From positions 1-64,000 of the forward strand of contig JAJYTF010000009.1 in assembly GCA_021793155.1 (NCBI GenBank): a DNA stretch of 64,000 nt, written 5' to 3'. Under the pieces are notes generated by a model. The model ran no database searches, was not told the DNA's origin, and saw nothing but the letters and a program-made list of their open reading frames with translations. This stretch comes from Pseudomonadota bacterium. GTDB lineage: Bacteria > Pseudomonadota > Alphaproteobacteria > Rhodospirillales > Magnetospirillaceae. Positions within the stretch are counted from its first letter, which is position 1; every line of letters starts with the position of its first letter. Of the stretch, positions 24,103 through 46,694 are shown in pieces. Position numbers and translations under genes: made by a program.

Positions 24103-24573
24103 TCAGGCGGTACCCTGCGTCTGCTCCTGGGCGAAATTTTCCATTCGGCTGCGGAACAGGGCGACGAAATCGATGGGCTGCAGCAACATGGGCGGGAAAC
24201 CGCCGTCGCGGGTCACGTCGGCGATGATATTGCGGGCGAAGGGGAACAGCAGGCGGGGCGCTTCGATCAGCAGCACCGGCTGTACATGTTCATCCGGCAG
24301 GTTCAGGGTGAAGATGCCGGCATAAGTCAGCTCGACGATGAAGGCTACCTTGTCCTTCACCTTGGCTTCGGTGACCAGTTGCAAGGCAACTTCAAACACG
24401 TTTTCCTGCATTGGCTTGACGTCCAGATCGACGCGCACACCGATTTCCGGGGGGGCGCTGGCCAATTCCTGGAAGATGGCCGGGGCGCCAGGAACTTCGA
24501 AGGACAGGTCCTTGACGTACTGGGCATTCACCTGGATCGGCGGCTGTTGCGGCTGGGCATTCTCGCTCATCAT
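24103..24573 (-). CDS. secB: Protein-export chaperone SecB
   Basis: Tetrameric cytosolic chaperone that keeps preproteins unfolded and hands them to SecA. It has 156 residues. The core 'VNAQYVKDLSFEVPGAP', 'LDVKPMQENVFEVALQLVTEAK' and 'YAGIFTLNLPDEHVQPVLLIEAPRLLFPFARNIIADVTRDGGFPPMLLQPIDF' regions match the family along its length. It runs opposite to dnaQ, next to which it also lies in Caulobacter. Upstream lies the first copy of a 123-bp repeat, which may separate it from fxsA transcription. Confidence 0.97.
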   Translation of the reverse strand: MMSENAQPQQPPIQVNAQYVKDLSFEVPGAPAIFQELASAPPEIGVRVDLDVKPMQENVFEVALQLVTEAKVKDKVAFIVELTYAGIFTLNLPDEHVQPVLLIEAPRLLFPFARNIIADVTRDGGFPPMLLQPIDFVALFRSRMENFAQEQTQGTA

Positions 24574-24613: not shown

Positions 24614-24736
24614 CTAGTGGTGAGAATCTCACGGATGGCACGGTCAGCATCCGTCAGATTCTCACCACAATTCAATCAGTTGGCGGGCCGCCTTATCCAG
24701 ACGCCCGGGAACCAAGCGTCTGTGGCGGACCACTAG
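24614..24736 (+). repeat. 123-bp MITE-like repeat, copy 1
   Basis: The element is bounded by inverted ends CTAGTGGT and ACCACTAG. Copy 2, in opposite orientation, lies at 45454-45576 and has exactly the same length. The left part folds into a long stem: bases 24618-24637 pair with 24649-24668 with a single mismatch. A smaller AGACGC/GCGTCT stem lies in the right part (24699-24704 and 24715-24720). It has no coding capacity and sits between the secB start and the fxsA stop. CTAG at both ends suggests TA or CTAG target duplication. Confidence 0.85.
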
Positions 24737-24785: not shown

Positions 24786-25226
24786 CTAATGGGGTAGGCG
24801 AGGTTTGCCGGACGGAGGGCGGCCTTCGTCGACCACTTCCCAGTCGCCCTCGATGACCGTTGGGCCGTCGGGCGGCGGGAAGCGGCTTTGCAGGCCACGG
24901 CGCAACAGGAGCCGTACCGGCGGCAGCAGCAGCGGAACCGCCAGCAGGTCGGTGGCGTAGCCGGGCAGCAGCAGCAGCAACCCGGCCGCCGCCAGACAGG
25001 CGCCGTCGAACAGTTCTGCCACCGGCATTTGCCCGCGGGCGAGCTGCGCCTGGGCACGGCGGGCGGTGGAGAGCCCCTGGATGCGCAGAAGCGCGGTACC
25101 GATCATGCCCGACAGGATGACACCGGCCACCGCGCCGAGCAGCCCGATCCACCGCGCGACCTCGATGAACGCGGCGATCTCCACGGCCGGCCAGGCCAGG
25201 ATGAGGATGGTGAACAGCCAGGCCAT
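24786..25226 (-). CDS. fxsA: FxsA family membrane protein
   Basis: Small inner-membrane protein of 146 residues. The N-terminal part has hydrophobic segments 'WLFTILILAWPAVEIAAFIEVARWIGLLGAVAGVILSGMIGTALLRIQGL', and a further pair follows with 'AAAGLLLLLPGYATDLLAVPLLLPPV', ending in an Arg- and Pro-rich cytoplasmic tail. This matches FxsA, which in E. coli relieves phage T7 exclusion by F when overexpressed; its normal role is unclear. It is divergent from the Tim44-like gene. Confidence 0.9.
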   Translation of the reverse strand: MAWLFTILILAWPAVEIAAFIEVARWIGLLGAVAGVILSGMIGTALLRIQGLSTARRAQAQLARGQMPVAELFDGACLAAAGLLLLLPGYATDLLAVPLLLPPVRLLLRRGLQSRFPPPDGPTVIEGDWEVVDEGRPPSGKPRLPH

Positions 25227-43884: not shown

Positions 43885-44231
43885 GCCGTGTCTCCAAAAC
43901 GGAAATATTGAGAGACTATAGCCGCACCATCGGCTAGTGCCAAGGGTGCGTCGGCATGTGGCGGCCTCGATACCGCCGCAAGACCCAAATCGGCTCGATG
44001 CCGACAAGGACCCCAGTTTGGCCGGGAGGCTGATGATCATCGACTAATCCCAACAAACATACATTGCAACAAATTGTTGTTACGGGCAAACTCGCGCGAT
44101 TATGAAAAAGAATGTCCACAGTATTGATATAGCAAACATCGCGTGTTCACATCGCCTCTCGCTATCTAGCCTAGGTCATGGTACCGGCCTGCCTACGCGT
44201 TCCCGGACGCCCTTTTCAAGGGGAACAGACA
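43885..44231. other. Intergenic region between divergent comM and the GGT-like pseudogene
   Basis: No gene is supported in these 347 bases. The middle and right part (about 44040-44165) is AT-richer and may hold the old promoter of the pseudogene. A short palindromic CAACAAATTGTTG lies near 44070. A ribosome site (AAGGGGA) lies just before 44232. Confidence 0.5.
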
Positions 44232-44930
44232 ATGAGGCGTTTCACTTCGGAGACGTCGCTAACCGGCGCTCTTGTTCTTGTCTTTGGGCCTGCGCAGACC
44301 GCCGACATCAAGGGAAAATACTGCGATACACCATCGCGGTGCCTGGACCCGATGGCGACCAATGCCATGGTCACCACGTCCGATTACCTGGCGACGCAGG
44401 CCGGCCAGAAGGCGACGATCGCGTTCTACACGTCAAAGGGTCTGCCGAAGATTCCGTCGCGCGGCTACCTGGCCGCCAACACCGTTCCTGGTGTCATCTC
44501 GGGCTGGGATGCCGCCTACCAGTACGCGAAAACCAGCATTGGGGTTGGAGTCGCCTGCTGAATTCGGCTGTCCGCTATGCCGATAACGGCTTCGCCGTCA
44601 CTCCCAGCCTCGCCTATTGGGAACAGGTGAATCTCAATCCCGCGGATCAGCAATTTCGCAATCTGCAGCGCTTCGATGGCTTCCGCCGGACCTTCCTGAA
44701 GGCCGACGGCACCGGTTATGGGCTTGGGGAAATTCTGAAACAGCCTGAGTTGGCGACCACCTTGCGCCTGATCGCCAAGGACGGTGCCAAGGCTGGCCCA
44801 CGGTGGCGTCCTGACCGCGGCCGATTTCGCCAGGCACAAGGCGAACTGGGTAGCCCCCATTTATGTCCAATATCGCGGCCGCACCGCGTACAATTTCCCG
44901 CCGAATACCCAGGGCATGGCGTCCCTGAAA

Positions 44931-44957
44931 ATCCTCAACATCCTCAACATCCTCAAC
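44931..44957 (+). repeat. Three tandem copies of a 9-bp unit in the pseudogene
   Basis: ATCCTCAAC occurs three times in a row and reads ILN-ILN-ILN in the surviving frame. Intact relatives are not expected to have this run, so it looks like replication slippage after the gene lost selection. Confidence 0.8.
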
Positions 44958-45453
44958 AATTTCGATGTGAAGTCGTTGGGTGAAAGTTCGGCTGACTGCT
45001 ACCACCTGATGGTCGAAGCGCCGAAACAGGCCTTTGCCGACCGCGATCGTTACCTGTCGGACCTGAGTTCGTCCAGATTCCAATCGAGTTCCTGCTGTCC
45101 CCTGCCCACGGCGCCGATCAGGCGGCGCGAATCGACATGAAAGTTGCCGCTCAGGAGCTCAAACCGCTCGATCCCAAGGGCGACACAGTGTGGTTCGGCG
45201 TGGTCGACAAAGACGGCAACGCGGTTTCGGTGATCCAAAGCATCTACCACGACTTCGGATCGGGCATCGTTGCCGGCGATACCGGCGTGCTGCTGCAGAA
45301 CCGTAGCAGTTTCTTCTCGCTCGATCCCAACCACATCAATCACCGGGAACCCGGCAAGCGCACCTTCCACACCTTCAATCCGGCCATGCTGATGAAGGAC
45401 TGCCGCCCCTTCCTGGTTTACAGCACCATGGGCGGGGAAGGGGAACCGCAGAC

Positions 45454-45576
45454 CTAGTGGTCCGCCCCAGACGCTTGGTCCCCAAGCGCCTGGATCAGGC
45501 GGCCCACCAACCAATTGAATTGTGGTGAAAATCCGACGGCTGGTGGCGGTACCATCCGTCGGATTTTCACCACTAG
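45454..45576 (-). repeat. 123-bp MITE-like repeat, copy 2, inserted in the pseudogene
   Basis: This is the same element as 24614-24736 in opposite orientation, identical in length, with CTAGTGGT and ACCACTAG ends. The long stem is conserved (pairing perfect over about 16 bp) even though its bases differ from copy 1 at two stem positions, each compensated on the other arm. Joining the flanks at the shared TAG puts the two pseudogene halves back in one frame, with TAG where relatives commonly have a glutamine. That fits insertion by duplication of a short target. Confidence 0.85.
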
Positions 45577-45836
45577 GCCAGCATGGTTACCCGCATAGTT
45601 GATTTCGGCATGTCCCCGCAGAACGCCATCACCGCCCCGTGTTGGTTGCACGGCCGAACCTGGGGCGCTGCCGCCTACGGCCTGAGACTGGAGGGCCGCG
45701 TTCCCGCCAACGTGGTCGAGGAACTGCGGCACCGCGGCCATCCGGTGACGGTGGTCGACGATTTCACCGACACCTGGGCCATGCGGGCGCACCCGGTAAG
45801 CGGCGTGCTGCAAGGCGCCACCGATCCCCGCGGCGA

Positions 45837-46694
45837 CTATCTCGACTTTTCGCCCACCGTTCCGACAGTCTGGGGACCCGTCCAGCCAGCCATGCGGGCG
45901 GACAGCCACCACCAGGCCCGTGCCGCCCGCAGCTTCCCTTCATTGGTCAGGTGGCCGCCGTCCTGGGTATAGCCGGCATACATGACGGGCTCTCCGCTGA
46001 CCATCACCTGCCGCCCTTGCGGGTCATGTGATTCGATATCGGCAATATCGTAAAGCGGTTTGCCATGCTCCTCGGCGTAAGCCCGGACCAGCCGGTTATA
46101 GGCGTTGCGCAGCTGGTTGCCGTTGTTCATCAGGGGAACAGTCCACCATACGAAGCGAACTTTGGGGTGGGCTTTTTCCAGGCGTTCCATGCCGTTACGG
46201 TAGTCGGCGAACAGCCGCGCAGGGTCTGTTTTCGGGTCCTGGAAATCGACGAAGCACAGCTTCATCATCGCCACATCGGCGGTCCGCCCCTGCCTTTCCA
46301 TGCGGCGCGAGAAATCCGCGATCTTGCCCTCCGGCTCGCCATTGCGGCCAACGAAGAAATGCTCGATGCCGGCCTGCTTGTCGTCCTCCGCCCCGCCTTT
46401 GAACAAGGCCGACAAGCTGAACCGCGAGGGCTCGGAGCGCACAACCAGCCGGTAGCGGCCGGGGTTTTGGCGGGCTAGTGCTTCCACGCCTTCCAGAAGA
46501 TTCGCACCCACCGACTGATGGCCGAAATAGACATCCAGGCTTCTCGCCCGGTCGAGCCAACGCTGGGGAATGACTTCATCCCGCGTATCGATGGTGGTGT
46601 GATCCGCGGTCAAGGCCGCGGCTGAGGCGCTGGTGGAAAGGATCAGTCCGCACACAGCGGACAACGCCGCCTTGCCCATCGTCTGCCCGTTCAT
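45837..46694 (-). CDS. Exported SGNH/GDSL-hydrolase-like protein
   Basis: Protein of 285 residues with a signal peptide ('MGKAALSAVCGLILSTSASAAAL'). 'SLDVYFGHQSVGANLLEGVEAL' offers a candidate nucleophile Ser, and 'DGGHLTNEGKLRAARAWWWLSARM' a C-terminal Asp-x2-His, the SGNH layout. The substrate is unknown; family members act on esters of lipids or polysaccharides. Its last codons lie within the degraded 3' end of the GGT-like pseudogene, so the C-terminal dozen or so residues may be non-native. GGAG lies seven bases before the ATG. Confidence 0.75.
   Translation of the reverse strand: MNGQTMGKAALSAVCGLILSTSASAAALTADHTTIDTRDEVIPQRWLDRARSLDVYFGHQSVGANLLEGVEALARQNPGRYRLVVRSEPSRFSLSALFKGGAEDDKQAGIEHFFVGRNGEPEGKIADFSRRMERQGRTADVAMMKLCFVDFQDPKTDPARLFADYRNGMERLEKAHPKVRFVWWTVPLMNNGNQLRNAYNRLVRAYAEEHGKPLYDIADIESHDPQGRQVMVSGEPVMYAGYTQDGGHLTNEGKLRAARAWWWLSARMAGWTGPQTVGTVGEKSR

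Follow-up and report, generated by a model that had tools for sequence, protein, structure and literature searches.

The CcrM-associated intergenic repeats of Caulobacter (CIR) consist of two long inverted-repeat arms and a linker (Delihas 2007, PMC2229807), and their mobility, in Caulobacter and in Brucella, has been described as unexplained (PMC2229807). RUP of Streptococcus pneumoniae is an established miniature inverted-repeat transposable element (MITE) linked to IS630, and the insertion sequence (IS) IS630 prefers the TA within 5'-CTAG-3' according to Tenzen and Ohtsubo (1991, as cited in PMC2170065). Here, we analysed a 123-bp repeat that is present in two copies in a 64,000-nucleotide stretch of a Magnetospirillaceae genome (positions 1 to 64,000 of contig JAJYTF010000009.1, assembly GCA_021793155.1; hereafter, the window), and we found that it resembles an IS630 MITE in its working and CIR in its looks. 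The repeat represents a MITE family that was active recently and is of a known kind; as far as the literature searched shows, this family has not been described.

Comparison with the described systems revealed shared features as well as differences. CIR and the Brucella repeats Bru-RS1/2 are likewise alphaproteobacterial and intergenic, with TA termini and a length of about 103-118 bp (PMC2229807), and their organization as two palindromic arms and a linker was also found in the present element. CIR contains GANTC near the loop, whereas this motif is not constant here: the left stem of copy 1 has GAATC/GATTC, the most amplified sequence (the master, described below) has AAATC at that place, and no constant loop motif was seen by inspection. 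The likeness to CIR is one of form, taken by description only, and membership in CIR is not claimed. RUP (IS630-Spn1) is likewise a MITE of about 107 bp with IS630-matching ends and insertion at TA (PMC2229807, PMC3049150), but it is AT-rich and belongs to a Gram-positive host, and two arm hairpins with a linker are not described for it. Correia/NEMIS of Neisseria and ERIC of enterobacteria are also TA-flanked MITEs of 100-200 bp with long stem-loops, and one Correia type has a site for integration host factor (IHF) (PMC2229807, PMC10969869); unlike the present element, they pair from end to end and not as independent arms, and a CTAG rule is unmentioned for them (PMC2229807). The insertion sequences IS630 and ISY100 likewise target and duplicate TA, and it is their transposase family that was matched here, but they are autonomous (approximately 1.15 kb in this genome), whereas the MITE is without a gene and has palindromic ends.

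Copy 1 occupies positions 24614-24736 on the plus strand and copy 2 positions 45454-45576 on the minus strand, both at full length including the CTAG flanks, exactly where an earlier note on this DNA had placed two mutually inverted copies with the ends CTAGTGGT...ACCACTAG. The two copies are identical at 104 of 123 positions (85%); copy 1 is a diverged member (124 bits, E-value of 6e-26, against covariance model R1), and copy 2, a member of a recent burst, is approximately 99% identical to dozens of genome copies by BLAST. The end motif occurred four times in the window, compared with 0.28 times expected by shuffling, and the terminal inverted repeat common to both ends (CTAGTGGT/ACCACTAG) is only 8 bp long, CTAG included. 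Each element is built from a left palindrome of approximately 52 nt, a conserved 12-nt linker and a right palindrome of approximately 55 nt. In copy 1, RNAfold and pair counts placed the left hairpin (element positions 4-55) at 24617-24668 and the right hairpin (element positions 68-122) at 24681-24735 on the plus strand, and column conservation suggested an unpaired linker at 24669-24680 between them; the corresponding parts of copy 2, all on the minus strand, are the left hairpin at 45522-45573 and the right hairpin at 45455-45509, both from RNAfold, and the linker at 45510-45521, from column conservation. The fold energies of the two window copies were -59.9 and -79.1 kcal/mol, compared with -36.0 ± 4.0 and -41.7 ± 3.9 kcal/mol for base-composition shuffles. 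The earlier note had described folding of the left half; that hairpin is present, but the right half folds as well. The note had also reported two compensated changes as the only stem differences between the copies. The changes at pairs 11-48 (GC/AT) and 16-43 (TA/CG) are real, but the tally was incomplete, as pairs 17-42, 22-37 and 25-34 also differ, with one copy mismatched at each, and copy 1 also has a mismatch at pair 26-33 (CA/TA). No Rfam model matched the window at its gathering score, and a published RNA family was rejected as the identity of the repeat.

Searching the genome (4.93 Mb in 66 contigs; the window is contig 57) with the right-end 17-mer gave 63 exact and nine one-mismatch sites, 72 in all, and none for the reversed control, and BLAST with window copies 1 and 2 returned at least 49 and at least 85 matches, respectively. 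With at least 72 right ends, the possibility of there being no further copies, which the earlier note had named as a refutation, is itself refuted. Forty-seven of the fetched copies were letter-for-letter identical and had flanks that were all different, a pattern that points to a recent burst, and about a dozen further fetched copies were one to three bases off this 47-copy master. The genome as a whole has some 60-70 copies, most of them identical. Some copies are probably absent from the assembly because several contigs terminate in or at a MITE copy. CTAG was found at both ends of essentially all young copies, and tandem copies have one CTAG in common. In the window as a whole, CTAG occurs 29 times compared with 210 expected from composition, approximately sevenfold more rarely. 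Three copies had unequal outer bases (CTAG...CTAA twice and GTAG...CTAG once), which fits TA duplication, point mutation also being possible; a strict 4-bp duplication of CTAG was rejected, since these copies suit TA duplication better. The large number of CTAG-flanked copies, some interspersed and some in tandem, bears out the mobile element that had been suspected, and the repeat, which is shorter than about 300 bp, lacks a transposase gene and exists as many dispersed copies with precise ends, is almost certainly a MITE, that is, a non-autonomous DNA transposon. A codon-usage test of genic location had no power, as the correct and wrong frames overlapped.

The transposase gene with matching ends that the earlier note had proposed to look for was found in the same genome. 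Contig 12 carries an intact IS630-family transposase of 378 amino acids (NF033545, 260.7 bits against a cutoff of 100; PF13358 match) within a single-copy, CTAG-flanked element of 1158 bp that has the same ends, CTAGTGGT...ACCACTAG, and boundaries that read CTAGTGGTAAAAATCTAACGGATG and CTAGTGGTCCGAGTCTAATGCTTGG. The transposase frame (L119:934-2070) stops in the TAG of the 3' CTAG, so that the target supplies the stop codon. Beyond CTAGTGGT, the MITE left consensus agreed with the left end of the IS at 16 of 20 positions (nominal P = 1e-6) and the MITE right end with the right end of the IS at 14 of 22 (nominal P = 3.5e-4), where both are nominal binomial values, uncorrected for the choice of comparison. 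Related transposases were present in 15 of 55 genomes of the family, and transposases with 70-71% identity were found on plasmids of Nitrobacter, Methylocystis, Hoeflea and Rhizobium; four of the five plasmid transposases inspected were enclosed by the ends CTAGTGG...CCACTAG, and the fifth had them on the right side only. No named relatives of the MITE itself were detected in plasmids at blastn sensitivity. Transposases of the IS5/DDE_Tnp_1 type were rejected as mobilisers, as none of nine DDE_Tnp_1 matches had matching ends, apart from one that merely adjoins a MITE copy. Target, ends and transposase family are therefore in agreement with one another, and the mobiliser is very probably an IS630-type transposase.

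The earlier note had called for a statistical test of covariation, and this proved strong in both hairpins across 30 to 94 distinct copies, the match between arms being unusually clear. In an alignment of 30 distinct copies from many genomes with 46 pairs, 89.5% of the pairs were standard, compared with 81.8% when partners were shuffled and 32-43% when the arms were slid by 1-3 columns, and double changes occurred at 27 of the 46 pairs (101 such cells), a number reached in none of 500 shuffles. Among 94 distinct copies, Watson-Crick pairing in cis amounted to 89.2% in the left stem and 85.3% in the right stem, compared with 58.9% (maximum 62.2%) and 69.4%, respectively, after partners were swapped; this alignment was made to the model and is biased towards structure, and the swap control was run on the same alignment. 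In relatives, we observed subfamilies whose arms were almost unrelated in sequence, yet nearly perfectly complementary. Double-hairpin elements were detected by the model in 25 of 27 family genomes, which had been picked mostly for earlier hits. Across 289 genomes of the class, the model search gave 11 positives, of which nine lie beyond the family and represent eight other families. Most of the examples read among these had two hairpins and CTAGTG-type ends.

Individual resident copies behaved differently from the subfamilies. The private changes in burst copies comprised 16 in stems and two at unpaired positions (of 92 stem and 31 unpaired positions), approximately as expected by chance, and of the 16 stem changes, 11 broke a pair, four gave a wobble and one restored pairing. 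In the 47-copy master, one pair of the left stem is a C-A mismatch. A single base sets copy 2 apart from the master, and this base closes the left stem at that pair; no other fetched burst copy had a matching base there, which may be either ancestral or corrected. Selection on the fold, as the earlier note had suggested it, is thus not supported at the level of individual copies, given the unpaired stem mutations of recent copies and the mismatch in the master. Uncompensated changes, which the note had listed as a refutation, were indeed seen among recent private mutations, but not among the differences between subfamilies. One copy (L007; G000:C25:115526-115648) is a mosaic of an L003-type left arm and a burst-type remainder, and three of its stem positions misfit. 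From copies with both ends intact to copies with neither end intact, non-Watson-Crick pairs increased from 6.7% to 15.8% and linker divergence from 3.9% to 12.5%; resident copies therefore lose pairing as their ends erode. The left stem had nearly equal numbers of G-U and A-C mismatches (68 and 67 cells, or 53 and 48 events per genome), the counts being phylogenetically non-independent, and strand-specific selection as RNA, one of the two forms of the fold that the note had envisaged, is therefore not indicated and shows little sign. We lean, by a small degree, towards the palindromes being maintained at the DNA level in the mobile lineage. That the two arms of the hairpins change together across many bacteria suggests a role for the hairpins in the spread of the element.

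We also examined the linker and the single hairpins. Positions 24670-24682 of copy 1, which cover the linker and the next two bases, read ATTCAATCAGTTG and match eight of the nine specified positions of WATCAANNNNTTR, the IHF consensus of E. coli. Conservation across the family gives ATTCAANNNNTTR for the linker together with its right neighbour, the four N being more variable; 57 of 93 copies matched WWTCAANNNNTTR and none matched strict WATCAANNNNTTR, and the motif is inconsistently kept in genomes outside the family. The genome has a gene for IHF alpha (ihfA), and the linker is a candidate IHF site, as a lead only. Scanning the genome for CTAGTG-N20-50-CACTAG revealed seven sites, all of them palindromes. 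One is a solo left hairpin of 58 bp with CTAG on both sides (L279, G000:C44:176162-176219) that is identical to the left half of the master, as a deletion between two ACCAC repeats would leave it. Another is a solo right hairpin of 53 bp, also with CTAG on both sides (L280, G000:C46:40748-40800), which has lost the TGAT bulge and whose inner arm agrees with the opposite arm as far as CTAG, a state that arm copying would produce. Four further sites are copies of a 48-bp single-hairpin repeat, CTAGTG...CACTAG, with arms that differ yet remain complementary (L276, L278, L281 and L282 at G000 C10:63973-64020, C43:69221-69268, C53:146732-146779 and C55:47815-47862). A 38-bp CTAG-flanked palindrome (L277, G000 C37:62579-62616) represents a further, CTAGTGCAGTGACTCAATCAAAAAGTTCACTGCACTAG-like family that was also seen in the flanks of L018, L041, L081, L093 and L111, and several MITE copies were inserted at the outer CTAG of such a palindrome. 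A repeat starting with CTAGATCGTGAYGCAGAAAT adjoins MITE copies in the flanks of L020 and L012 and at L017 and L112, and a CTAGTGCACTAG remnant at L020 resembles the footprint that deletion of the 38-bp palindrome would leave.

The surroundings of the two window copies are different in kind. Copy 1 lies between secB (24103-24573, minus strand; PF02556, 176.8 bits) and fxsA (24786-25226, minus strand; PF04186, 108 bits), and these Pfam matches agree with the neighbours that the earlier note had named. Copy 2 splits a gamma-glutamyltranspeptidase (ggt)-like gene (44102-45972) that is probably a pseudogene because it is scattered over several reading frames. The part at 45137-45457 on the plus strand ends in the TAG of the CTAG of the element and the gene resumes at 45583-45972, PF01019 profile positions 323-425 and 431-511 flanking copy 2 on either side. 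A ggt-like paralogue (G000:C10:172578) has an uninterrupted frame at the site of copy 2, and there the paralogue and the ggt relatives read ACC-CAG-(GCC).

Taken as a whole, we consider it likely that the repeat is a non-autonomous IS630-type MITE whose palindromes are kept in the moving lineage. An IS630-family (Tc1/mariner-type) DDE transposase would move the repeat in trans; we infer that it would bind the MITE ends and cut and paste the element, which would insert at CTAG with duplication of the central TA. Each MITE end consists of an IS-like end and, behind it, the same sequence in inverted form, so each half is a palindrome. Changes in either arm may be transferred to the opposite arm by hairpin-templated (quasi-palindrome) synthesis, or imperfect palindromes may propagate less well, or both, while the resident copies would decay. 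The explanation of the mobility appears strong on these sequence comparisons. Several observations weigh against this reading. The IS occurs once in the genome, the match at its right end is modest, a close transposase is absent from several relatives that are rich in MITEs, and mobilisation by the IS630 transposase is deduced, transposition not having been observed. The ggt relatives and the paralogue have CCAG, not CTAG, at the site of copy 2, so an earlier change from CAG to TAG must be assumed, and a BLAST of the joined flanks against all available sequence did not find a strict empty site and returned solely ggt relatives, other repeats and tandem copies. Furthermore, eroded copies lose pairing at about half the rate of independently decaying arms under full neutrality, so that resident copies may be conserved or corrected to some extent, and the inner right stem shows 51 G-U compared with 28 A-C events.

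Selection might alternatively act on the hairpins as RNA where the element has inserted, on either strand, with roles as substrates of RNase III or RNase E, terminators or mRNA stabilisers, as has been proposed for Neisseria NEMIS and Yersinia ERIC. The very stable fold, the strong covariation and some G-U excess in the right hairpin agree with this, as does the processing of MITE transcripts in other systems (PMC10969869); we nevertheless regard it as unlikely, given that stem-preserving changes are not in excess among recent private mutations, the variant with the highest copy number contains a C-A mismatch, the left stem has G-U and A-C in balance, pairing falls as the ends erode and one copy sits within a broken gene. 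The same left-stem balance would suit palindromes of purely mutational origin, produced without selection by template switching between the arms during replication. The solo right hairpin resembles the product of such arm copying, and the single base by which copy 2 departs from the master completes a stem pair, but copy 2 may simply show the ancestral state, eroded resident copies lose pairing, and near-perfect palindromes at very large divergence are found mainly in copies with intact ends; this origin is conceivable, though we would not favour it.

Selection may also act on protein binding and not on folding, if each end carries an outer and an inner transposase-binding repeat. Each arm does resemble an IS end, and either half can occur by itself with CTAG on both sides. 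However, the arms drift far from the IS end yet stay palindromic, and the two ends of the IS itself, set side by side, match at only about 12 of 22 positions beyond CTAGTGGT, being less symmetric than the MITE arms, which makes this arrangement quite improbable. Short, palindromic and repeated sequences could finally be non-mobile extragenic palindromes (REP/BIME-like) or products of a Y1/RAYT transposase, but the precise CTAG-bounded full-length copies, the tandems with a shared CTAG and the DDE IS630 element with the same ends leave hardly any room for this, although no search aimed at a RAYT was made.

On a wider scale, and only as a speculation that we rate as doubtful, IS630 transposases may mobilise a superfamily of CTAG-seeking double-hairpin MITEs that spans the Alphaproteobacteria as a class and probably includes CIR and Bru-RS. 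The arms would evolve in concert through transposition-coupled hairpin-templated synthesis, a bend at an IHF-like site between the arms would draw the two hairpins together, and the single hairpins of 38-58 bp would be the smallest mobile modules. For the present genome, a recently amplified MITE and its likely transposase have both been identified, and alphaproteobacterial repeats of the "two arms plus linker" type, whose mobility had been described as unexplained, are linked to transposases of IS630. Whether palindromes in small repeats are kept up by function or by copying from arm to arm is a long-standing question, which becomes testable with the many subfamilies whose arms are unrelated in sequence yet matched.
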